Assembly: GCA_010279815.1 (NCBI GenBank)
Contig: QEOQ01000426.1
Span: 292,831-356,830, forward strand
Direction of reading: 5' to 3'
Source: Brachionus plicatilis
Taxonomy: Eukaryota > Rotifera > Eurotatoria > Ploima > Brachionidae
Length of the DNA stretch: 64,000 nt
Of the stretch, positions 9,785 through 58,918 are shown piece by piece (the first letter of the stretch is position 1; each line of letters begins with the position of its first letter). The translations under genes were made by a program, and so were the position numbers. The notes below the pieces were generated by a model. That model made no database searches. It saw only the letters and a list, made by a program, of their open reading frames with translations, and was not told the origin of the DNA.

Positions 9785-12700
9785 ATGATTTCACAACAGC
9801 AAATAGATGAGCCACAGGTCAAAATAAAAAGACCTGTGTACAATTATGCCAAGTTTAAGCAAAGCTATCAAACAAACTCATTCAGAGGGTTCATGATTTT
9901 AGTCACAATCCGCGACATGTTTGTCAAAAGTTGTTCTCCTGGAAAAGATTGTCTGATTCAAAATGTTCTCGATCGATTTCCTTTTTTAGTCTGGCTAAGA
10001 GAATACAACTTTAAGGAGTCATTTTTGGCCGATCTTTTCGCAGGTCTTACTGTTGGAATCATGCAGATACCGCAGGGTATGGGCTATGCCTTTCTTGCCA
10101 CCCTGCCTCCTATCTACGGTTTATACACCTCATTCTTTCCAGCTCTAATTTACTTTTTTCTCGGCACCTCGAAACAAATATCCATAGGCACTTTTGCTAT
10201 TCCTTCACTAATGACTGGCTCCATGATCATCAGACTCGAAGATAAATTCGCTCCACCGGAGGGATTTAACAAATCATTTGATAATTTAACTCATGGAAAA
10301 GACACTTCTAATTTTTTGAGTGAGGACAGAGAAGAGGCTAGGGCTCTTATTGCCATGGCATCTGCTTTTTGGATCGGAATTATTCATTTGGCCATGTTTT
10401 GCTTCAATCTCGGATTCATAACATCGTTTCTAAGCGAGCCGATGATTAATGGATTTCTAACAGGTAATTTGAATAAAAAAGAGACAAATTTTTGAGTTAA
10501 TTTTAAATATAAAGGAAGTGCAATTCATGTGTTAACTTCACAAATAAAATCAGTGTTGGGAATTTCGCTGAAAAAGTATTCTGGAGCATTTCAAATTCCA
10601 GAAGTAAATTTATTTAAATATTTAAAAAAAACATTTAAATTCTTTTGTCTTAAAATAGATTTGGTATGAAACCATTTTGAAAATTCCACAAGCAAACATT
10701 GCTACGATAATTACTTCTGTCATTTGTATAGCTATTATGTTGGTGGTAAAAATTTATATCAATGACAAATTTGCCAAAAAATTCAAAGGTAAAAACAGTG
10801 CTCATAAAATTTGGCTTTTTTTTTTAATTGAATGACAAAAAGAAAATTGAAAAAAAAACATAAAATTTAACTTTTTTTGGGCGCTGGTCAAATTTGTGAT
10901 CAATGAATCCCAATCAACTTATTAGTTAATTACATGAACAAACAAAAAGTTCATACTAAAAAATTAACTTGCTGGGAAAATTAAACTTTTAGTAGGAAAA
11001 AAAATTTTAATTAAGATTTTCTTTATTTTTTTAAAATTTTACCCACATTTTATCATTAAGATAAATAATACACTGGTTAATGTACAACCAGTGGATTAAA
11101 AAAACTAATAGCCCATTTATTGAAACTTTGAATAGATTTTTCTGAACATTGAATGGTAAGACATTTAAATTTTTATATTTTACAAATATTAAACTAATAA
11201 TTTCTAATGATTTAATAAAATTAGTTTTTTATCTGCTTTTTGATTTTTTTGAATTTTCTTCCCCCTTTTTCTTACCTTTTTCACCTACAAAAGAAAGAGG
11301 AATAAGTCAGTTGATTTTTTTTGTGAATTTGATTTTGTTTTTTTAATTTTAAAAAGAAAATTATGTAAACAATTAATCTAATCACTTATTTCCAAAATAA
11401 AAGATTTTTCTTTTAATATTTGCAACACTAATCCTTATTTATTTTTCACTAAAATATTTTTTTCATATTTTTTTAGAATTAAAAAGAAACAGTGTTGAAA
11501 GGTTTTTAATTGAAGAACTTAAGATCTTTGAGCACAGTAAAAGCCTCGATTGAAACAAGTTTTTCTAAAATAAATCGGCAAACTTGGCAGACAAAAAACT
11601 CTTAATAAAAAAAAAAGTTAAAAATTAATATCAGATATAATAGAAATTACAATGATCATAAACGTTAATTAGCTAAAATTTTTTTAGTGCTATTTTTATT
11701 TTTTTAGGAACTACCAAAACCATTTCATTTGACTAAATTATAAGAAAAATAAATTAAGAAGATTTTATCTTTTTTAAAGTTTATTTTTCTTAAGCTTGAA
11801 TAAATTGATTAAGTTTTCATTTTAAATTTTGCTGCTTTTTTCATTTTTTTATTTAGCTATTTCTTTCTTTAGCTTTTTTTTTAATTACATTAAAAAATAC
11901 TAAATATCATTCTAAATCAAAATTTTAATTTAGGTAACCAAAATTTTTAGTTTTTATTTAATTAAAAAAAATTTAAGCCAATTTTTACTTTGTTGAAAAT
12001 TTTAAAATAATTTTTTGTTTCAGTTCCAATACCTATTGAACTTCTGATAGTAAAATTGAATCTTAAAAAAAGTAAAATTATAAAAATTTCTTTAGGTAAT
12101 ATTTGGCACCCTTATTTCATATGTTGCTAATTTCAATGAAAATTTAAATATTCGAGTAATTGGTCCTGTCCAAGCCGGGTAAAATAAAAAAATCTAATTT
12201 CATGAAAGAAAAAAAACTTTACATATTTTTTCTAGCTTTCCTAAGCCGAGGATACCACCATTGTTTTTGTTTAAAGACATGATGGTTGACTGTTTCTTGA
12301 TTGCCATAATTTCTTTTGTGAGCAATTTTTCTCTATGTGATGTTTTTTCTAAAACCCATCGATACAAAATAAATACAAACCAAGAACTGTTAGCCTATGG
12401 AACTAGTAATGTGTTTGGTTCATTCTTTTCTTGTTTTGTCAGTGCTGGTTCTCTGAGTCGATCATTGGTACAGAATAATGTTGGTGGTAAGACCCAGTTG
12501 GCATCCTTGTTCTCTTGTTTGATTGTCGCTCTGGTTTTGTTATTCATCGCCCCTCTGCTTAGAGAATTACCAAGAGCTTGTCTTGCAGCCATTATTTTGG
12601 TTGCCTTAAAAAATATGCTCAAAAAAATTGGAGACTTGGGTTTTTATTGGAAAGTCAGCAAAAACGAGTTTGTATGAAAAATAATTTTTTAAAATTAATT

Positions 12701-16992: not shown

Positions 16993-17223
16993 ATTCAGAC
17001 TTAAAAAAATTGAGCTGAATATTTTTGTATCACTTCAAATTAAGTTTTGATAAAAAATTAAATAAAAAATATTTTATTAAAAAATCAGTTTTTTTCTTGA
17101 AACAAATTATTAATTTAGTTAAGACAAAAAGCGATCTAGGTAACAATAATAATAAAATAATAGTGATGAAATCGAATTTTTTTTTTGTAAGAAAATTGAA
17201 ACTTGAATAAAAAATTATTCTGA

Positions 17224-17405
17224 ATAACTTGTTCGAATGAATTTTCATTCAAATTACTTATTCGGATGAATTTTCATTCAAATAACTTATTCGGATGAAT
17301 TTTCATTCAAATAACTTATTCGGATGAGTTTTCATTCAAATAACTTATTCGGATGAATTTTCATTCAAATAACTTATTCGGATGAGTTTTCATTCAAATA
17401 ACTTT
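17224..17405 (-). repeat. 29-bp minisatellite array, left arm (~6 units)
   Basis: Tandem units read AAATAACTTATTCGGATGAA then TTTTCATTC on the + strand. The unit contains an imperfect palindrome (GAATGAATTTTCATTC). Variation is mainly G/A in the GATGA(A/G)TTTT core. It is the reverse complement of the array at 17612-17900. Confidence 0.9.
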
Positions 17406-17611
17406 TTTTAAAATTTCTTTAAAAAAATCAGAGTTTTTTAAAAGTCCCAAAAAAAATTCTAAGTCATTATAGTTGTTTAAAAGTCGCAAGTCTCTAAAAA
17501 AAATAATTAGTTAAGAGTAAAATTTTAATAGCAAAGAAAAAAAGGAAGAGATTTTAAAGGAGAAAATTAATGCTTATAATTAATGCTTATATATGTACGA
17601 AGCGAATATTC

Positions 17612-17900
17612 GAATGAAAATTCATTCGAACAAGTTATTTGAATGAAAACTCATTCGAACAAGTTATTTGAATGAAAATTCATTCGAATAAGTTATTTGA
17701 ATGAAAACTCATTCGAACAAGTTATTTGAATGAAAATTCATCCGAATAAGTTATTTGAATGAAAACTCATTCGAATAAGTTATTTGAATGAAAATTCATT
17801 CGAATAAGTTATTTGAATAAAAACTCATTCGAACAAGTTATTTGAATGAAAATTCATCCGAATAAGTTATTTGAATGAAAACTCATCCGAAACTTCCTTT
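17612..17900 (+). repeat. 29-bp minisatellite array, right arm (~10 units)
   Basis: Units start every 29 bp from 17612: GAATGAAAATTCATTCGAAT then AAGTTATTT, alternating between AAAAT and AAAAC and between CATTCGAA and CATCCGAA. The near-regular alternation of ..AATTC.. and ..AACTC.. units suggests a 58-bp higher-order repeat. Units are directly adjacent with no unique spacers. Confidence 0.9.
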
Positions 17901-17989
17901 ATTTGAATATTGCGTCGAATAACCATATTCGATTTCATCACTATAAAATAATATAATCGAAGCCAGTTAGGCTTCAAAATTTAACATTG

Positions 17990-22300: not shown

Positions 22301-23935
22301 AGTTCATAATTCTTTTTAAATAATTTTGTTTCGAAGATGCAAATTAAAATTTAAAAAAAATACTTAGAAACTAAGTCCAAGCAAAGACTTTAAATTTTTT
22401 TAAAATTTTCTTTCAAAAGTCCAAGTCCAGGCTTTAAAATTTTGAATACTGAAGAAGAATTATGAAGACATTTATGTTAAAATTGCAAGAAAATCCTGAT
22501 ATGTGGCAAATATTTTGCATTAGATAACCCAAGAGTATATAATTTTCTTGATTTGAAGCCTGATCTAGCAAATTTAAAAAAAAGTCCGGACTTGGATTTT
22601 TTTTTTAAGACTTGGAATTTTTTTGGGACTTTTAAACAACTCTGTATAATTGATGTATTTTTTCATTTTCAAATTTTAATAACGCAATTATTTAATAAAA
22701 TAACATTAGATTCAAAGGACTATCTAAAGGTTTCCCTCAAATTATTGAATTTAAAAAAATAAACTTCAACCTCCCTAGGTTACCCTGTAAAATTTTGGAA
22801 AAAAAAATACTGCTATTTTTAACCATCAATGTAATTAAGTCATCTTTGACATAATTTTCATCTTGCAGTGCTTTGATCCGGCTATGAATTTGCGTTCGGC
22901 CTAACTCTCTTAAATCGTTCAACAGCAGTTTGTATCTTTTTATGTAGCCCCATTCAAACGGATTATACTAAAATAAAAAAATTAATTTTTAATAGTCTAA
23001 ATAAAAATGTATTGCCTTTATGGTTGGATTGAATAAAAGACGATTTAGGCCTCTAAGACTTTCAAAAACAAACTTTTTCAAATTGTTCTCTTTGGTAATG
23101 CTGTCATTTTGCATTCCAAAGCAAGCCTTAAAAAAAACTTTAAAAAAAAAAAGCTTTAAAAAAACTAAAAAAAAAAATACAGCTGCAATCACATCAAGTG
23201 TTAAATTATTCAACTCGTCAAGCATTCTAATTGATGTTCTACAATCAGCCAAATTTCTCAATTTACCCATTAGAACATCACTTTTTGTATTAAACTCGTC
23301 CATGAAGCCATTCAAAGCCCTTTTGAATTAAATTATATAAATTGAAAAAAAAAAATTTAATTTATATTAGATAACTGTCTTGAAAATGCCGGATTCATGA
23401 TGTGTCTGCGATGTCGGTGTTTAGCATTGTCCAAGCTGGTAACCAAACTGGTGCCCATGTATCTAGATCCATAGGGAAACCCAAGTACTGCGTATATGTC
23501 AGGATGCTTGGGAAAATTTTTGTCTATGTACATCTCTTTGATTGCATCGGGACTTATGGTAAATATGCTAATTTTATCCAATATTTGGTACTTGAAGCAA
23601 GGCCCGTATTCTTTCACCCAATCTGTTAGGATGTCAGGCACCATTTTGAGCTTGACTAGTTCTTTAAGCTCAGGTATGTTTCCCAAATAAAAGCCGAGTA
23701 GGCCATTTGTTTTTGGGCCCGGAATGTGACTATATTTTTGTCTCAATAGATACAACTTTATGGTTTTGTAGACAAAAAGGATTAGGGATGCACAAATGGA
23801 CAATTTTAAAATTTCTGAGTAAGGAAGTTTTCTTTTAGTGGCAGATGTGCCAATTGAAGCAGTTAGTTTGAAGCCAATATATGCTATACCTGCAAAAATT
23901 AACAGTGATGCAGTTGTTATTTTTGATTCAAGCAT
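19310..23935 (-). CDS. Cytochrome P450 monooxygenase, complete
   Basis: Nine minus-strand exons: 23935-23376, 23319-23181, 23126-23016, 22967-22811, 20149-20090, 20040-19968, 19915-19720, 19663-19505, 19453-19310. Phases agree throughout and give 532 aa. The N-terminus has hydrophobic segments (ASLLIFAGIAYIGFKL and ILKLSICASLILFVY), suiting an ER-anchored microsomal enzyme, then the HIPGP hinge. Diagnostic motifs are all present: I-helix FFVAGQETTS, K-helix ExxR as ETLR, FEPERF, and the heme loop FPFSIGPRNCIGQ with the Cys thiolate. The overall look (long WVKEYGP region, DFLTFFVAGQETT) resembles CYP4/CYP46-clan enzymes that hydroxylate sterols or fatty acids; the substrate is unknown. Intron 3 is GC-AG; intron 8 (51 nt) is in frame. 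Intron 4 (2.66 kb) carries nested palindromic elements. Confidence 0.9.
19454..19504 (-). other. 51-nt in-frame intron of the P450 (possible exitron)
   Basis: The segment starts GTAAGAAGTG and ends TTAATTAAG on the minus strand, is a multiple of three and has no stop. Removing it joins GQNFSI to IEGKICLAKF, the normal spacing between heme loop and L-helix in P450s. Retaining it would insert 17 mostly hydrophobic and basic residues straight after the heme loop. Confidence 0.7.
20440..21125. repeat. Outer inverted repeat surrounding a palindromic MITE
   Basis: AATATAATCTTGAACACTTA with ATTTTATTCTACTGC on the left (20450-20495) is mirrored on the right (about 21075-21115, GCAGTAGAATAAAAT then TAAGATTATATTAG). 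Closer in, GCAAATATTTTTGGAAAATT near 20600 is mirrored near 21045. The MITE at 20619-20972 sits off-centre inside, so this is an older foldback with a younger palindrome in it, within P450 intron 4. Confidence 0.6.
20619..20972. mobile_element. GGCAATGTG palindromic MITE, copy A
   Basis: Ends GGCAATGTGAAATTTTTGTA and its complement. The arms include GTACAATATTGTACAAATTT and AATTCCAAGCTCTGCAAAAA, pairing over nearly the whole 354 bp. The flank GAAAATTTT occurs on both sides. It is closely similar to the element at 48453-48827. Reading frames on both strands here mirror each other and are not genes. Confidence 0.85.
21699..22262. mobile_element. TIR element in P450 intron 4
   Basis: The left arm 21699-21770 (TTTGACGTTTTCGACCAGAA) and right arm 22202-22262 (TTCTGGTCGAAAACGTCAAA) are inverted copies, with outer TTAAAATTACAGC/GCTGTAGTTTT also pairing. 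No coding sequence. A related terminus (GCGCGGATTAAAACTACGGC) occurs alone at about 35928-35950. Confidence 0.65.
22372..22644. mobile_element. CAGAGTTG-family MITE, long copy with eroded left end
   Basis: The right end reads GGGACTTTTAAACAACTCTG. Interior blocks match the intact copy at 32642-32979: ACCCAAGAGTATATAA, then GAAGCCTGATCTAGCAAAT, then GTCCGGACTTGGA. The left terminus is not recognisable. Located in P450 intron 4 close to exon 4. Confidence 0.65.
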
Positions 23936-24445: not shown

Positions 24446-25645
24446 CTAGCGGGGCTCCGCCTCAATAGACTTCTTACTCTTTTTTACCATTTACCTTCTT
24501 ATTTCCCATTAAAATAGGTATTTTTTTAAAATTAATTTGTTATCATCAACTGCTTACTCAGTTACCTCAATATTCAGCGTTTTTAACATTCATTACTCAC
24601 ATTCCATCCAACTTTGGCAAAAATACGCTATTTTTCATGATCTTTAGTTTTCAAAAGATTATATACAAACATTTCCAAATTCACTAACTAATATCAAAAA
24701 TAGAATGATACTCCTTAATATAAAGGAAGTAAATACGAATCTAATGTGGACAAATACCCTTTAAAATAAATGTAAATGTTTAACAGCCCTTAAATGTCAG
24801 TAATAATAAAAAAAATGAATTGATTAAAAATGTTTATTAATAAAAATTTAAAACAAAACATTTAGTTAATTCCAAAAGCTCTTGAAATACAATGTTCTTC
24901 GTGTAAACTTCGCCATTAGGAACAAAACCAAGGAGTCGTCGTTGTCTTAACGTACCATGCATATGCATATCAACAAGTACCCGCAATGACCCGGAATTAC
25001 GCACTCTTGATGCTGCCACATACAACTGGCCATGATTAAAAACAGGTCGACGCAGCAATAGACCAATCGAATTAAATGTTTGGCATTGTGACATGTTAAT
25101 GGTCTTTGCAAAAGCCAACTGAAATGGAAATTGTATTCGTCGGATACGAATTCCTGGCTCATCTTATTTGATCGAAACTCACTTCGAAAATAGAGAAATT
25201 CTTTTCTTTGAGTGGGGCCTTCCATTACAACGCACTTGATCGAATTTAAATTGCATTCGACAACAATTAATCTAGTGCCATTGCAAATGTCCTCGGCAAC
25301 CGACCAATTTTTCATCATCATCACAATTGCTCCGACTTTAGCATTGAGCTGATGCGGTGGAAAAACCTGAGGTGTCAAGGCGAACACATTCTCAATAGGA
25401 AAGTCAGAATTGTCATCCACCAGTCCTGTGTCTCGATGTAAAATCTGCGTTTAACCAATATACTCTCTATTGTCCGATGTCAATCGTTCAAGTACCACTT
25501 CGTTGATTTCCATTGAGTCAACATTGGTCGGACAAAGGATGGCGTTGTTGAGACGATTGTTCGCATTGAGATTCAATTCGCCTGCACCAAACACTTCGTC
25601 GACAATATTTCCAACACATATAACATCACTTGGTAGTCGAACCAA
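24446..25645 (-). pseudogene. Helitron helicase C-terminal remnant, with possible 3' terminus
   Basis: Minus-strand pieces in three frames match the PIF1-like helicase of Helitrons. 25645-25451 has VICVGNIVDEVFG and ERLTSDNREYIG. 25420-25160 has VFPPHQLNAKVGAIVMM and ICNGTRLIVVECNLNSIKC. 25118-24837 has AFAKTINMSQCQTF (usually SQGQTF) and FNHGQLYVAASRVRNSGSL. Frameshifts separate them. About 390 bp past the helicase end, the minus strand shows GCGGAGCCCCGCTAG (a GCGG/CCGC stem ending in CTAG at 24446), a plausible Helitron 3' end, unusually GC-rich here. Only the helicase tail is left; Rep is absent. The terminus is speculative, the helicase identity firm. Confidence 0.75.
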
Positions 25646-31338: not shown

Positions 31339-32259
31339 TTATCTTTTTTCAATAAGTCCACTTCTTCGAATATTATTGAGTCGTTTGGATGTAGAGGCCA
31401 AAAGGTCGTCTACGAGATTTTGGTCCATATTTCTTGTAAAAAGTCGTATTTTATTCCTTAGTTCATCTAAGTTTTTTGCTCTCCAGCCATTCTCATACAG
31501 TTTCCCTTTTAAAATGACCAAAAATCTTCAATTCTGGCACATTTGCAGGGTTTTCGCATTTCGTTTTCGCAAATTTGTTATTATGGTAAATCAAGTTGTT
31601 GACGACTGTATTGGCATAATGAGAGCTCGCCAAGTCGGGCCAGAACTTAAAGTTGCCGACTGAATGATGCTTTTTAATAAAAGGAATGACTCCACGCTTT
31701 ATAAAGTCAAAATAGACAGTTTGGTTGACTGCAAGTCCACTTTTTCGTATGATTGGCACCGAAATACCCCTCTCAGAAATGACCAACCCGACATGTAATT
31801 TCTGCTCAAATTTCTTAACTGGGGTATAATTTGTACTTGCTGGTGTTGCAGCAATGTTACTTGAGTAAAATATATCATTTCCATTGATTTTCCCATGACT
31901 GAGAGTGAAATTGGATTCATCGTCTAAAATCCAGGAAATATTTGGATTTTTTAAATACAAATTTCTACATTTAACTCGGCTCGGTCAGGGATTTTCATCT
32001 TTTTTCTAAGTGTTATTTAAAATTTCTTCAAAAATTTTGAGACCATTTTCTGGCTTATATCAAACTTTTTGGCTGCTTTACGCTGACTGATGTTGTCTTT
32101 GTGATCAAAAGCCTTTTTTAGCTTGTTGAGTTGTACTTTAGTCATTTTTTTCGGTGTTAGACCAGATCTTTGCTTCCTTTTTGGTTGAAAATATTCACTA
32201 CGTTTTAAAATTCGGTAAACAGTACTCCTTTGAATTTTACACAGTGAATATCTTTCCAA
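31339..32259 (-). pseudogene. Tc1/mariner-type transposase, frameshifted
   Basis: Minus-strand pieces run in order. 32259-32017 carries two helix-turn-helix-like stretches (RSTVYRILKRSEYF and NISQRKAAKKFDISQKMVSK). 31960-31493 has the catalytic core: ILDDESNFTLSHG (first Asp), then FWPDLASSHYANTVV (second Asp). 31521-31339 has YENGWRAKNLDELRNKIR, the usual C-terminus. Between the second and third parts the IEDFW block (third acidic residue) is present only in another frame, after a small deletion following NPANVPE. Two or three frameshifts make it inactive. It cuts and pastes DNA in the intact family (DDE/D nuclease). I could not identify its terminal inverted repeats. Confidence 0.85.
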
Positions 32260-38011: not shown

Positions 38012-38704
38012 TTTTGTTTCAAAAATTTTTCACATGATTACTTTATATTTTACTTTACTAGTTTAATATTACGTAAAAATGGAAAAAGTAATCAAAAGAA
38101 TTCAGTTTTCCAAAAAATCTCATCTTTATAAAAATAAAAATAAATTTAGAAAATCCTTTGTTTTATTTTCTAAATCTATTTAAAATTATAAATAGTTATT
38201 AAGGAATTTTTCTGAGCAAAAAAGTAAACAGCTTTTTTACTATGAGTCACAAAGTTCCCGCAATAGCTCTGCAATTTAATATTAATGATCTTTAGACTTG
38301 CAGAGTTTTTGCAGAGATCTAAGGCAACTTGAAGTTAATGAAAACTTAATAAATTCAGATCACAATAAAATAATGGAATAAGCTTTTTTTATTGTATCCA
38401 AGCTAATTTTTATAACAATCTTAAATTATTTTTTCTAATGACAATTTTGACTATCTATTTGTAAAACAGGTTTGGATTCTATAACAAAAATTAGTCCTTG
38501 CCTTGACTTGGGCATGATGTATGACTTTTGATCAACTCTTTTTTAAAATTTTAATTATTTGCGAAAGGAATTTTCCCCACAAAAGAGTTGAAATTAAATA
38601 AAAAAGTTAACGAATAAAATATTTTTGTTATTTTTTTTATTTAAAAATTATTTATTTATGAAATTAAAGTTTAATTTCAATTCTGAAAAGCTGTAGAAAG
38701 TCGT
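38012..38704. repeat. Long direct repeat flanking the LINE, left copy (693 bp)
   Basis: Starts TTTTGTTTCAAAAATTTTTC and ends GCTGTAGAAAGTCGT. It matches 41652-42345 along its full length; the only difference I see is one extra T (AAAATGG versus AAAATTGG). Both copies stop exactly where the retrotransposon begins and ends. It has no LTR features and contains older repeat scraps (CTCTGCAA/TTGCAGAG, GGCAACTTGAAGTTAATG), so it looks like host DNA duplicated on insertion. Confidence 0.9.
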
Positions 38705-38724
38705 AGTAGTAGTAGTAGTAGTAG
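38704..38724. repeat. (TAG)7 microsatellite, LINE 3' tail
   Basis: Seven TAG triplets on the + strand, i.e. a CTA-repeat tail at the 3' end of the minus-strand LINE. Simple-repeat tails instead of poly-A are common in CR1- and RTE-like elements. Confidence 0.85.
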
Positions 38725-41651
38725 TTTAAAACTGCAGCGTGATGAATCACGCGGAGCGCGTCAGCTATGCGACTGACACCCTGTGGCAGTTTCCAATGTG
38801 TTTGTCTAAGTTGATCTTGAAAGTCTTGATATTAAGCGATTCTATGACTTCGTTTGGGAGTGAATTCCAAGTGTTTGCGATTCTGTTGTTAAAGAATTCG
38901 TGTCTCTGATTGCAGCATCTCACTATTTCGCGTTTAAAGTGCCCTCTATGACCACCTCTAGGTTCTCCGCATTTAGGATTTTCGTGCCAGTTGATTTCTT
39001 CTAGACCTTTATCGAGTTTGTACTTTTGAATTAGATCGCCGCGTATTCTTCTGATGAATAATGATGATAAGCCTAATCTGTTGCATCTTATTTCATACGG
39101 AAGATGTCTTAACTCGTGAGAGACTTTGGTGGCTCTGTGTTGAACTTTTTCGAGTGTGTTTATGTCTTTTTTGGTATAAGGTGACCAGGCCGAGACGGCG
39201 AATTCAATTTGAGGTCTCACGTAAGACGTATAAAGTTTTTTCCAGAGTTAAGCATCTCTGAAAACGAATGTCCTTTTTAGAAGACCTAATAAACTATTTG
39301 CTTTTGAAGCTGCTTTGTTTACTTGAGCGCTAGACTTAAGATCGTTAGAGATTAGTACTCCGAGATCTTTTTCGAGTTCGGTTGTGGCAATATCAACGGT
39401 TAAGTTCGAGTCATAACAGCTCATTGTGTAAGTTGTTTTTGGATTTGATTTGCCAATATGCATTACTTTACATTTCTCTGCATTGAGGAGCATTAACCAA
39501 GTTGTTGTCCAGCTAACTGTTGTGTCTATGTCGAGTTGAAGTTTGACAGAGTTTTCTGACGTGTTTTTTGAGCCTAAATTTGCCATAATTTTAGTGTCGT
39601 CTGCGTACATTTTGGTTGTGCACTTGAGAGATTCAGCAAGATCGTTAATAAAGATGATGAACAGCGTTGGGCCAAGTACTGAGCCTTGGGGAACTCCGCT
39701 GTGCACTTTGAGCCAATCGGACGCACTGTCACCTAAAATTACTCTTTGTCTGCGGTCGGTGAGAAAAGCTCTTATCCAGTTTAATAATTCTTCTTTTATT
39801 CCATATTTACCTAATTTGAATAAGAGACGTTCGTGTGGAACTTTGTCAAAGGCTTTGGCAAAGTCTAGAAAGACGATATCGACCGATTGTTTTGAAGCGA
39901 GCGCTTTTGTTGTAAAATCCATAGTCTCTAAAAGGTTCGTGACGCAAGCTTTTTTGTTGACGAAGCCATGTTGTTTTTTCGATAACAGGTTGTGTTTGTT
40001 GAGGAAGGAAATAGTTTCTTCTTTTACTAACTTTTCCATTATCTTGCACGGAATGGAAGTCAACGAAATTGGTCTATAGTTTGCTGGATCTGAATTGTTT
40101 CCCTTTTTAAACAAGGGGGTCACATTTGCTTCCAACCAAGCTTTAGGAACTTTACCAGTGTTCATCGATCTCTGGAAAATTAGTTTTAGAGGTTGTGACC
40201 AGCTTGAAGCATTTTCTTTTAAAGCATACGGGTGTACGCCATCGTTACCAACAGATTTGTTTCGATCCAATTGTGAGAGAAGAGTGACGATTTTATCATT
40301 CGAGAAAGTGATATGATTTAGGCGTTCGTTAGTTCTAGATTCGAATAATGGCATTTTCTCTTCTGCGTTCTCTTTGACGAATACCGAGTTGAATTGATAA
40401 TTTAAGGCGTTTGATATATCGATTTTATCGGTCAAAATTTCTTTTTTTTCGTTGATGATCGTGTTTATTCTTTGTTTTATTGTTTGTTTTGAGCTTATGT
40501 ACGCGTATAAGCGTTTCGGATTCTTTTTATCAGATGCTAGATCGTTTTCGAAGGACTTGACTGAATCGTGGGATTTCTTTTCGATTTCCCTCTTCACTTT
40601 ATTGTACTTTGCTTGTATAGCTTGATTTTTGCCGCCTGTGGACTGGAGCTGGTGCCATAAGGTTCGTTTGTCTTTGATTAGGCTCAATAGTTCTTGTGTC
40701 ATCCACGGGGCTCTTTTTTTTTTGGTGTGAATCTTTTTTTGCGGAATAAAGGACTTACAAGCCGAGTTGTAAATGGTTAAGAAGATTTCGTAACACTCTT
40801 CTACATCTTTTTCGTCGAATAGCTCCTCCCAGTTGTGATCTCTGATCGTTTTTCCCATATTAATGTAGTCACCTTGTCTGTAATTAAACTTGCTGCTTGA
40901 GGTAATTTTTTTTGAGCTGTTAGCTAGTTCATAGTTCCAAGCAAGAGTAATGTGAGCTTGATTGCTTGCTCCGAGCGGGGCTGTTCCCTTTAAGTTGCTT
41001 ATTCTATTCGGTGTTTCTGTAATGATGTAGTCCAGAGTGTTTGTCATCGAACCATCTGCTTTACGAAAAGTCGGGAAGTGCACAGTTTGACTTAGAGATT
41101 CGTCGTTTAGCAGGTCAATAAAACTGTTACCTGGGCTATCGTCAGGACCAGTGACAGTGACTGATCCGTCTTTGTAGTATTTAATGTATGGAAAATTTAA
41201 GTCACCAGTAACGAGTAAACCCTGGCATTTTTTGGCGTCGAGTGCACGTTTGACGGCTTTTAGAGAGCTATTTATTTCGCGGTCAATCATTGAATTTTTT
41301 GCAAAGTTGGTGCTTGGTGGCGGACGATATATACATCCGAGTATAATTGACTCGTTGTTTGATTTAATTGTGCACCAGATTTGTTCCGAGTGAACGCAGT
41401 AGGTTTCGCTAATTAGTGATGAACATGTCAGATCTGAAGAGGTTAATTCATTGTTTACATAGATGGCGACGCCTCCGGAATGGCTTTCTCTGTCTCTGCG
41501 GAAAATATGAAAGTTTGTCAGACTGGGTACTGATGTGTTTGTAAACCAAGTCTCAGTAATGAAGATGATGTGTGACTTCTCTTTTTCAACTCGTAGTGAC
41601 AGTTCGCGGAGCTTTTGTCCATTTAGAGATGTTGCATTTGTGTATAAACAT
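38705..41651 (-). mobile_element. Non-LTR retrotransposon (Jockey/CR1-like LINE), 5'-truncated
   Basis: A 2.95-kb minus-strand insertion. Its 3' end (low coordinates) has a stem-loop GCGTGA-TTCA-TCACGC (38737-38752), then TTTAAA and a (CTA)7 tail (38704-38724). The body is one long frame coding for endonuclease and RT. The 5' border at 41651 cuts in just before the endonuclease. It is flanked by direct repeats of about 693 bp. G+C content is visibly higher than the surrounding DNA, as expected for a recent arrival. Confidence 0.92.
38765..41651 (-). pseudogene. LINE ORF2: AP-type endonuclease plus reverse transcriptase, one in-frame stop
   Basis: The frame enters at the 5' border without its own ATG and reads KCLYTNATSLNGQKLREL, then IIFITETWF (endonuclease start), LLVTGDLNFPYIKY, DYIITE and SNQAHITLAW (endonuclease catalytic blocks). 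Then come the RT blocks: VGNDGVHPYALKE, ANYRPISLTSIPCKIMEKLV, VDIVFLDFAKAFDKVPHERL, SGVPQGSVLGPTLFIIFIND and KMYADDTKIMA. The thumb and tail follow (LGVLISNDLKSSAQVNKAAS and VRPQIEFAVSAWSPYTKK). A single TAA at 39248-39250 interrupts the frame between FVFRDA and LWKKLYTSYVRP, with no shift; the same frame then runs to its stop at 38765. The protein nicks target DNA and copies its RNA into it in the intact family. All catalytic residues I can place are present, so decay is minimal. No ORF1 is seen. Confidence 0.93.
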
Positions 41652-42345
41652 TTTTGTTTCAAAAATTTTTCACATGATTACTTTATATTTTACTTTACTA
41701 GTTTAATATTACGTAAAAATTGGAAAAAGTAATCAAAAGAATTCAGTTTTCCAAAAAATCTCATCTTTATAAAAATAAAAATAAATTTAGAAAATCCTTT
41801 GTTTTATTTTCTAAATCTATTTAAAATTATAAATAGTTATTAAGGAATTTTTCTGAGCAAAAAAGTAAACAGCTTTTTTACTATGAGTCACAAAGTTCCC
41901 GCAATAGCTCTGCAATTTAATATTAATGATCTTTAGACTTGCAGAGTTTTTGCAGAGATCTAAGGCAACTTGAAGTTAATGAAAACTTAATAAATTCAGA
42001 TCACAATAAAATAATGGAATAAGCTTTTTTTATTGTATCCAAGCTAATTTTTATAACAATCTTAAATTATTTTTTCTAATGACAATTTTGACTATCTATT
42101 TGTAAAACAGGTTTGGATTCTATAACAAAAATTAGTCCTTGCCTTGACTTGGGCATGATGTATGACTTTTGATCAACTCTTTTTTAAAATTTTAATTATT
42201 TGCGAAAGGAATTTTCCCCACAAAAGAGTTGAAATTAAATAAAAAAGTTAACGAATAAAATATTTTTGTTATTTTTTTTATTTAAAAATTATTTATTTAT
42301 GAAATTAAAGTTTAATTTCAATTCTGAAAAGCTGTAGAAAGTCGT
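41652..42345. repeat. Long direct repeat flanking the LINE, right copy (694 bp)
   Basis: Second copy of 38012-38704. After GCTGTAGAAAGTCGT it continues into unrelated sequence (GAAAGGCGTAATAGC), whereas the left copy meets the LINE tail there. Before TTTTGTTTC it meets the LINE 5' border. Confidence 0.9.
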
Positions 42346-51137: not shown

Positions 51138-51825
51138 NNNNNNNNNNNNNNNNNNNNNNNNNNNNNNNNNNNNNNNNNNNNNNNNNNNNNNNNNNNNNNN
51201 NNNNNNNNNNNNNNNNNNNNNNNNNNNNNNNNNNNNNNNNNNNNNNNNNNNNNNNNNNNNNNNNNNNNNNNNNNNNNNNNNNNNNNNNNNNNNNNNNNNN
51301 NNNNNNNNNNNNNNNNNNNNNNNNNNNNNNNNNNNNNNNNNNNNNNNNNNNNNNNNNNNNNNNNNNNNNNNNNNNNNNNNNNNNNNNNNNNNNNNNNNNN
51401 NNNNNNNNNNNNNNNNNNNNNNNNNNNNNNNNNNNNNNNNNNNNNNNNNNNNNNNNNNNNNNNNNNNNNNNNNNNNNNNNNNNNNNNNNNNNNNNNNNNN
51501 NNNNNNNNNNNNNNNNNNNNNNNNNNNNNNNNNNNNNNNNNNNNNNNNNNNNNNNNNNNNNNNNNNNNNNNNNNNNNNNNNNNNNNNNNNNNNNNNNNNN
51601 NNNNNNNNNNNNNNNNNNNNNNNNNNNNNNNNNNNNNNNNNNNNNNNNNNNNNNNNNNNNNNNNNNNNNNNNNNNNNNNNNNNNNNNNNNNNNNNNNNNN
51701 NNNNNNNNNNNNNNNNNNNNNNNNNNNNNNNNNNNNNNNNNNNNNNNNNNNNNNNNNNNNNNNNNNNNNNNNNNNNNNNNNNNNNNNNNNNNNNNNNNNN
51801 NNNNNNNNNNNNNNNNNNNNNNNNN
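51138..51825. other. Assembly gap (688 N)
   Basis: Unknown sequence. The right flank is poly-A then the inner part and end of a CAGAGTTG-family MITE, so the gap probably contains the rest of that element or a repeat that defeated assembly. Reading frames spanning the Ns have no meaning. Confidence 0.95.
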
Positions 51826-56579: not shown

Positions 56580-57963
56580 AAATAATAAAAAAATATAAAC
56601 TAGTTTAAAAAGAAATGAAGTAATATATGTAAAATTGATACTTATATTATTATTATTATGTTATTTTCGATTTCGTTCAGAATTTATTTTTTCGTTTTAT
56701 AGAGCCAAAAATATGATTATTTTATTTATTAAATTTTGTGATTGAAAATTTATTTTCATTTTAAAAAATTATGATTTTTTAGAAGAAATTGAAAATTTTG
56801 AACCTAAGTTCCATATAAGTCGCAAAGCCAATTAAATTTATTAAGCATGATTTATCAATTAATATTTTTTGATTTTTTAAAAAAAAAAATTTAAAAAAAT
56901 TTAATGTTATTTATTTTAATTAATATTGAAATTTTATTTAAAAGGAAACCCATAGGTTGGTGTGTTTAAAATTATTTGAATTTTTTTTTAAACCTTCCAA
57001 TTTTTTTTACTTCTAAGTCCTTAAGAAATGTATTAAAAAAGTAAAATAAAGCAATAAAAAATTCCGATTATTTATTTAATTTTTATTTATGTAGTTTTTT
57101 ATATTAATTTTTTGAAGAAGAAAGAAGAGTGTAAAATACCCTTTTAATTTTTTTAAAAAAAATTAGAGTGGTAATTTAATAAATTTTTTTTTAGAATGAA
57201 TGTAACTATGTAAAGGTTTTAGTAATTTATTTTTGTTTAATTTAAAGGAGCTGATATTCAAAAAAATAAATCGAACACAAAAAACCTTAATTTTGCTGTG
57301 CCTCTTTTACTAATTGATTATTTCGTGAAAGATAATCGAGGTAAAAATTGATCGAAATGAAAAGAACAATGCCTGGAATCAGTTAATCAGATGTCACAAA
57401 ATTTGATTTTAAATTTATTATCTAGGAATAATAGGCGTTCATTGAAAATAGTTAACTAATCCAAAGACGAAATTAATGTGATTAATAAAGCTAATTTTTT
57501 TAACAATTAAATTACTCGGATGTTAATTTAAATTTTTTTAAAATTATTTAAAATTAATTACATAATATTTTTGATTATGAATAAAATCAAGTTTTTTTCA
57601 GCTGCCAAATCTGACAGATTAAATGCTGTCCGTTAAAGGAAGATATTTTATTATAGTTAATGAAAATTAATTAAAAAAATAAAAATCTATAAAATCAAAT
57701 GAGTGTCGAATCTGATCAAAAGATTTAAATATCATTAAAAATTATTGATTTAATTTGTACAGCTCGGCTACGACAAACATATTAAATAATTAATCTGGCC
57801 AAAATACACATTAGAATATAGACACCTTTAGATTTTAATTTTATTTAAAAAAATCGATAAATCTTATAAAAATTAGATTTTATTTTTATTTTAATATTTT
57901 ATTTTTAGGGCTTGATTTTAGAAAAATAGAAAAAAAAACAAATTAAAAAATGTGCTAAAAAAC
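56580..57963. other. Upstream region of the GPCR gene
   Basis: AT-rich. ..TTTATTTTTAG at 57899-57909 could be the acceptor of a 5'-UTR intron 54 bp before the GPCR start codon. No other feature. Confidence 0.35.
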
Positions 57964-58918
57964 ATGAATTTTAGCGACTCATTTGAAGAAGAATTCAGTT
58001 ATTCCGAGTCCGACTCGGACCACATTGCAGTTGGATACTACACATTTTTTGTCATCATGTACACATTGATCACTCTAGTGTCGTTCATTGGCAATACAAT
58101 AATTTTGATTGTGATACTGCGGCGACGACGCATGAGAGTTGTTACCAATTTTTTTCTGGCCAACATCACCATTGCCAATTTGATCTACACAGTGTGTGCA
58201 CCTCTGCAGTTCATAGATGAAATGTACATCAATTGGACCTACATGGACATCATGTGTCCGCTACTTCCATTTTTTTCCACTTTGTCAATTAATGTAAACA
58301 CATCGACCATGATCGCTGCGTCCATGGAACGCTTGTTTGTGATCGTGTACCCGTTCAAGTGCAAGCTGACCAAGAAGAAGACTTTGCTTATAATAGCTGG
58401 TATTTGGCTGGGCTCTGTTATGTTAAGCTCGCCATGGCTCATTGCCCTGCGAATTGAGAGATTGAACTTTTTTGGAAAAATACTGGAAAACTTTGCCATT
58501 TCGAATCAAACCGAGGAGATTTTTTTCCCACTGGAAGAGAGCAGTTTTGAATTTGTGCAGTGTAAGCCTCTAGACGACTTCGATCTGCGCTACTACTTTA
58601 TTTTGTTGTGTTTTATTCAGTACTTTTTGCCAATGTTTGTTCTCATGATAACCTATTCCATCATCGCCTACTATATCTATTTCATCAATTCCAAAGTCGA
58701 TCTTATCATGGACAACAAGTTTTACAACAATTTTTTGACCAGAAACAAAAAAAAAGTAAATTAAAAAAAAATCAATCATTTTTTTATTTTATTTAATTAA
58801 AAATTTTTAAGCTTATTAAAATGTTGGTTTTTATGATTATATGCTTTAACATTTGTTGGCTCCCATTACAGCTAAATGTTCTCATTAGAGCTATTGATCC
58901 TCAACTGTTAAATTCTAT
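57964..58918 (+). CDS. Rhodopsin-family G-protein-coupled receptor, TM1-TM6 (3' end unresolved)
   Basis: Exon 1 (57964-58755) starts at the ATG of MNFSDSFEEEF; exon 2 (58812-58918) follows in phase through a 56-bp GT-AG intron. The acidic extracellular N-terminus is short. TM1 has SFIGNTIILIVIL (the GN motif), TM2 FFLANITIANLIYTV, and TM3 begins at MCPLLPFF (disulfide Cys) and ends AASMERLFVIVYPF (E-R-L in place of D-R-Y). TM4 holds GIWLGSVMLSSPWLIAL, ECL2 the partner Cys in EFVQCKPL, TM5 YFILLCFIQYFLPMFVLMI, and TM6 (exon 2) MIICFNICWLPLQL with C-W-x-P. This is the layout of peptide-type class A receptors at the plasma membrane; the ligand is unknown. A consensus donor (AT|GTAAGT) ends exon 2, but no downstream exon with an NPxxY TM7 is seen before the window ends. 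Confidence 0.85.

Follow-up and report, generated by a model that had tools for sequence, protein, structure and literature searches.

Long direct duplications at the borders of LINE insertions in the rotifer Brachionus plicatilis

Long duplications at LINE insertions

Long target-site duplications of LINEs are described for human LINE-1. In nucleotide-excision-repair-deficient human cells, LINE-1 duplications span hundreds to thousands of base pairs (Servant et al., PMC5223499). According to the available part of that report, these long duplications occur together with short ones, a 3′ tail is present in most, and their proposed origin is an unrelated nick located more distally; for HeLa cells, duplications above 100 bp are said there never to exceed 10% of events. 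Kojima (2010, PMC2912911), commenting on Gilbert et al., likewise mentions, in the part available, 5′-truncated LINE-1 insertions in HeLa cells with radical target changes, comprising duplications of less than 10 bp as well as extremely long ones. A sister-chromatid model is given in the accessible text of PMC7058536 for a LINE-1-mediated tandem duplication in cancer.

For rotifers, R9 of the bdelloids bears a 126-bp duplication as cited in PMC6895275 and is rDNA-specific by the title of its own paper. Hebe of Adineta vaga, in the section of PMC2861651 at hand, shows ordinary duplications of 7–12 bp in three intact copies. Among the titles and abstracts of the part of the literature covered, none was found to report duplications of this kind for any rotifer LINE except R9.

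Here, we describe a LINE insertion between two direct copies of a stretch of almost 0.7 kb in a window of 64,000 nucleotides of B. plicatilis (GCA_010279815.1, contig QEOQ01000426.1), together with 32 related insertions of the same genome. The following comparisons are limited to what the cited parts of these papers describe. As for the LINE-1 of PMC5223499, long duplications stand beside short ones—here in three of 33 insertions. However, those LINE-1 elements are engineered, carry poly(A), and were followed in cultured cells, whereas the copies in the rotifer genome are natural, resident, and CTA-tailed. The combination of 5′ truncation with short and long duplications is shared with the HeLa LINE-1 of PMC2912911; element and host are different, and the HeLa events stem from cell culture. 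R9 is similar in being a rotifer LINE with an unusually long duplication. Yet R9 is rDNA-specific with one cited cleavage distance, whereas the endonuclease of the present LINE is APE-type, its sites are scattered, and its duplications vary in length. In the case of PMC7058536, a LINE also lies at the junction of a direct duplication, but on the megabase scale and in somatic cells. Hebe is a rotifer non-LTR element too, but with ordinary short duplications; long duplication as a rotifer-wide property finds no support in it. A sequence-only reading of the window had placed 693 bp far beyond precedent. This was wrong, since LINE-1 duplications of more than 1 kb are described in cultured human cells in the available part of PMC5223499.

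The insertion of the window and its flanking duplication

The window corresponds to C37:292831–356830 of the searched assembly, which comprises 102.9 Mb in 173 contigs. Among the named relatives of ordinary length in the 120 of 7991 matches listed, the HSP70 of this genome is most similar to that of the monogonont rotifer Asplanchna brightwellii (90% over 93%); the bdelloids Adineta steineri and Rotaria sordida reach 87% and several other animals 86–88%. On this one conserved gene, a rotifer host is probable. A search of the assembly for COX1 found none. The LINE of the window, the domains therein, and the two flanking copies of the duplicated stretch—termed S—are listed in Table 1.

Table 1. 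Positions of the LINE and of the duplicated stretch S within the window.
Feature	Positions	Strand	Remarks
Left copy of S (target-site duplication)	38012..38704	+	693 bp; adjoins the LINE 3′ end
LINE insertion, 5′-truncated	38705..41651	-	2947 bp; related copies reach further 5′
3′ tail	38705..38725	-	microsatellite of the CTA type with seven ACT units
Remaining C-terminal coding region	38765..39220	-	same frame past the stop; no separate Pfam match
Main open frame of the LINE	39248..41651	-	in-frame stop at 39248-39250; copy not intact
Reverse transcriptase domain	39446..40099	-	PF00078; coordinates derived from residues
APE-type endonuclease region	40988..41614	-	PF03372/PF14529; coordinates derived from residues
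Right copy of S	41652..42345	+	694 bp; adjoins the LINE 5′ border, runs into the older right flank

The element is an APE-type LINE—a non-LTR retrotransposon—and bears both domains that define this type. PF00078 (E 1.1e-33) and PF14529 (E 7.2e-7) score above the Pfam cut-off, PF03372 (E 0.00022) below it. LINE-1 ORF2p is among the solved relatives of its reverse transcriptase, and the closest named protein among the matches listed is from Hydra vulgaris (43% over 99%). A CR1/L2/jockey-like clade is a candidate placement for the element. As expected for a LINE, the related copies have a common 3′ end—found at 18 places—and are variably truncated, with 5′ starts ranging from LINE position 1 to 2733. 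The copy of the window is 5′-truncated, because its relatives extend further 5′ than its border.

Global alignment of the two S copies gives 693 identical positions, one extra T, and no substitution, and hence exactly the limits and the one-T difference that the sequence-only reading had reported. That both repeats end at the LINE borders holds as well: on the left, (AGT)7 starts at position 38705 right after S as the complement of the CTA-type tail, and on the right, the truncated 5′ end of the LINE at position 41651 directly precedes S. Full-length S (693 bp) is found at two places only in the whole 102.9-Mb genome, both within the window, where it is the sole direct-repeat family of 300 nt listed.

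A relative of S on C5 (L004, 82% over 419 bp) continues unbroken from S into the right flank. Since L004 runs across the border of the two, S and the right flank form the older arrangement, and since the LINE 3′ end sits at the matching border of the other S, L004 represents the uncut form of the first-nick site. For the border between the left S and the sequence before it, no crossing relative was found among the matches listed (40 of 161 candidates scored). A reading of S as an LTR-like terminal repeat is rejected, as L004 runs past the end of S and the genome search found S in full length nowhere else.

Other parts of the window bear a run of 688 N at 51138-51825, which is an assembly gap or withheld sequence, and a tandem array with a period of 29 bp at 17201-17949. 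By eye, several coding stretches can be made out, which may encode an SLC26-like transporter (9785-10495), a cytochrome P450-like protein (23357-23935), a piece of a Pif1/Helitron-like helicase (24947-25420), a piece of a Tc1-like transposase (31493-31960), and a rhodopsin-type receptor-like protein (57952-58764). For the last of these, a protein search finds PF00001 relatives, the nearest with 90% identity.

Related insertions and their flanks

The survey comprised 33 insertions: 18 places of subfamily A, 14 of a sister-subfamily pattern, and C16. Subfamily A was defined by a 25-mer from the 3′ end, for which three mismatches at most were allowed, and includes the window copy. The ten places of subfamily B are nine with zero or one mismatch plus C16, and subfamily C comprises five places with three mismatches. 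Several relatives lie outside the survey (C28, C73:261603, C27, C24:50342, C20:1024810, C1:5619992, C125 with L043 and L071, and C8 with L041); C43 (L023, L069), L026, L028, and L032 were looked at but stand outside the count, as they are not in the pattern sets.

Long direct repeats that meet the LINE borders are present in three of the 33 insertions from these three related subfamilies, on three different contigs. Their lengths are 693/694 bp for the window, 138/141 bp for C1, and 732/729 bp for C20. No long duplication of up to ~2 kb was found in the other 30, which rules out that every copy carries one. In subfamily A, the 16 copies other than those of the window and C1 bear no long repeat beside the tail. 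These are a set of 14—for which 0.67–1.5 kb on the 5′ side and 1.4–1.5 kb on the 3′ side were compared, so that a duplication of up to ~2 kb was detectable—plus C11 (L022) and C170. Nor was a long repeat found in the nine subfamily B copies other than C20 or in any of the five subfamily C copies. C170, C30, and C74 are counted as none found with their 5′ border not placed; their post-tail sequence does not recur upstream within 8, 10, and 7 kb, respectively. On the small contig C170 (L018, L040, L044, L045), a long LINE copy lies between what appear by eye to be two Ty3/gypsy-like coding stretches.

In the C1 case (L021, ~3828.7–3829.5 kb), a 473-bp copy of subfamily A is flanked by a 138-bp repeat at its 5′ end and a 141-bp repeat at its 3′ end. 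Both repeats abut the LINE borders and are distinguished by one substitution and by three T within a run (blastn core 132/136). The first-nick border is clearly crossed by six weak matches (70–75%) among the 65 listed; most others start about at this border, because a dispersed repeat ends there. Abundant dispersed repeats, often as inverted pairs some hundred bases apart, flank several of the LINE insertions (L060, query 128-269, and L082-L086) and are perhaps non-autonomous terminal-inverted-repeat elements.

C20 (~786.7–792.1 kb) is the strongest single case, as relatives cross both outer borders. Here, L065 1466-2197 (732 bp) and L033 2050-2778 (729 bp) enclose a longer copy of subfamily B and meet its borders. 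The repeat becomes visible only with a longer stretch, since the short loci did not reach its 5′ flank. Of its positions, 721/732 are identical, with eight substitutions and one gap of three bases. The border between the outer flank and S on the one side is crossed by relatives that include C16 (90%), C17 (91%), and C60 (94%; 40 of 320 candidates scored). On the other side, the main match crosses the border between S and the outer flank in 36 of the 39 other places scored, in one of them by just eight bases (40 of 216 candidates scored), and a reading frame passes through. With relatives spanning both outer borders, the site before insertion was most simply flank–S–flank with a single S. The LINE of C20 is 99.0% identical to that of C2 and 98.6% to that of C30. 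Hence, the S copies diverge about as much as one LINE copy from another, which is consistent with S having been duplicated at the time of LINE insertion.

Copies without a long duplication

For 15 subfamily A copies—the set of 14 and C11—the longest word shared by the two junctions has a mean of 4.0, compared with 1.41 for mispaired flanks, a value not reached in any of 5000 permutations; an earlier run with L021 among the controls gave 4.0 versus 1.55 (0/2000). Words of 3–7 bp are found in 12 of these copies and no short match in the remaining three; words of 6–7 bp occur at C25, C21, C22, C55, and C13. Subfamilies B and C taken by themselves (eight copies) show no significant excess (2.0 versus 1.14, 599/5000 permutations), and pooling of all 23 copies gives 3.30 versus 1.30 (0/5000). 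Any single short match is uncertain, because words may overlap the tail or the LINE edge by a few bases, and chance matches of up to 10 bp occur between mispaired flanks.

Empty sites offer a more direct view for two copies. C78 is a blunt insertion in all five empty-site relatives fetched from those listed. C97 is contiguous to about one base in five of five relatives, for which only ~20 bases of the 5′ flank align, and these with mismatches, so that its reading as an empty site is uncertain. No large target deletion is seen in these two copies, the ones comparable with empty-site relatives. For this check, the flanks were joined for five subfamily A and two subfamily B copies, and the search covered those of C24 and C97 and the greater part of those of C78.

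Among the 33 insertions, none falls between 8 and 137 bp. This gap is only suggestive, because the sample is 33 and words of ~10–20 bp are near the chance limit in this AT-rich genome.

A mechanism and its alternatives

We regard it as probable that these insertions were made by target-primed reverse transcription that is usually closed near the first nick and, in three of 33 cases, at a break 0.1–0.7 kb off. At the right-hand end of S, the LINE endonuclease would nick one strand; the tail lies at this first-nick end, and both tail and border look as expected for target-primed reverse transcription. Reverse transcription primed from there would stop early and leave a 5′-truncated cDNA. Usually, the second-strand break would fall within a few base pairs of the first nick; in the window, C1, and C20, the cDNA might instead be joined to an independent break of the other strand that lies ~693, 138, and 730 bp away, respectively, downstream with respect to LINE transcription. 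Fill-in between the two breaks would then duplicate the enclosed stretch. Duplications of more than 100 bp that end at the LINE borders and stand beside mostly short ones are what a distal-nick mode calls for, and such a mixture is found here. We infer in which order the nicks were made, that the distant break arose independently, and that it was located on the same duplex. Repair across ~700 bp between two breaks is a proposed step; a break in the sister chromatid would leave an identical sequence.

The latter leads to the alternative that survives best. The cDNA started on one chromatid might be joined to a break in the sister hundreds of bases downstream, placing the LINE at the junction of a tandem duplication. 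Such joining would give the same final structure without long unwinding, and PMC7058536, in the part available, proposes it as the origin of a LINE-1-mediated tandem duplication of 22.6 Mb in cancer. All three lengths, however, are below 1 kb—a weak point, as duplications above ~2 kb are hardly detectable here—and C78 and C97 bear no large deletion, where two copies are too few. Overall, we consider sister joining unlikely.

An assembly artefact, in which a haplotype with the LINE and one without it were joined in series, had been raised by the sequence-only reading and is improbable. It draws on the fact that the genome is represented by one assembly and that S is found on no other contig. 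But there are three loci on three contigs, and a false join without overlap would have had to hit the LINE borders each time: C1 and C20 are bounded like the window, and the relatives of C20 span its outer borders on either side. That the S copies of C20 differ about as much as LINE copies do also argues against a join, albeit weakly, as haplotypes could differ likewise.

Even less probable is a dedicated wide stagger, for which the endonuclease of the element would cut the second strand hundreds of bases off, similar to the 126 bp of R9. In its favor, long cases occur in two subfamilies, three in all. The lengths vary, however (138, 693, and ~730 bp), and 30 of 33 insertions are without a long duplication, so that the mixed outcomes already largely refute this explanation. 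The R9 endonuclease is restriction-like, and that of the window LINE is APE-type. One long duplication length, as for R9, is not what the three lengths in three of 33 copies show, and an rDNA target is not seen either: the 3′ flanks differ from copy to copy. No Rfam family was found in the window. Of the wide stagger suggested by the sequence-only reading, the long duplication itself stands and is joined by C1 and C20; a fixed R9-like stagger as a family trait is not supported, with 30 of 33 copies lacking a long duplication and one being blunt. That reading had named the flanking duplications of other copies as the check, and these are mostly short or absent, which largely refutes a fixed stagger.

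Finally, an older tandem S–S with the LINE later inserted exactly between its copies would give the identical final sequence, but it is barely credible, as it needs an exact-junction insertion three times, and in the dispersed relatives of C20, S is continuous with the outer flank on either side and no tandem S is seen.

Going beyond distal closing as favored above, there might be two closing modes: a coupled one of 0–7 bp and an uncoupled one of 100–800 bp, with nothing between. The uncoupled mode could regularly create direct duplications of less than 1 kb in the germline and may reflect rotifer DNA repair, with the 126 bp of R9 as a further outcome of this host property. We put this forward as a speculation that is rather doubtful.

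Conclusion and outlook

The cutting and closing of the second strand by LINEs is a long-standing gap. Known very long duplications stem, in the parts of the literature available, from engineered human LINE-1 in culture or from tumours; new here are natural, genome-resident cases—three insertions—from a different, non-mammalian LINE. Their frequency of three in 33, a small sample, is compatible with the statement for HeLa cells that such events never exceeded 10% (PMC5223499, in the part available). Searches for short duplications only would probably miss events of this type or class them as segmental duplications. Since a single genome holds blunt, short, and long outcomes, this LINE family provides a natural test of the distal-nick model.
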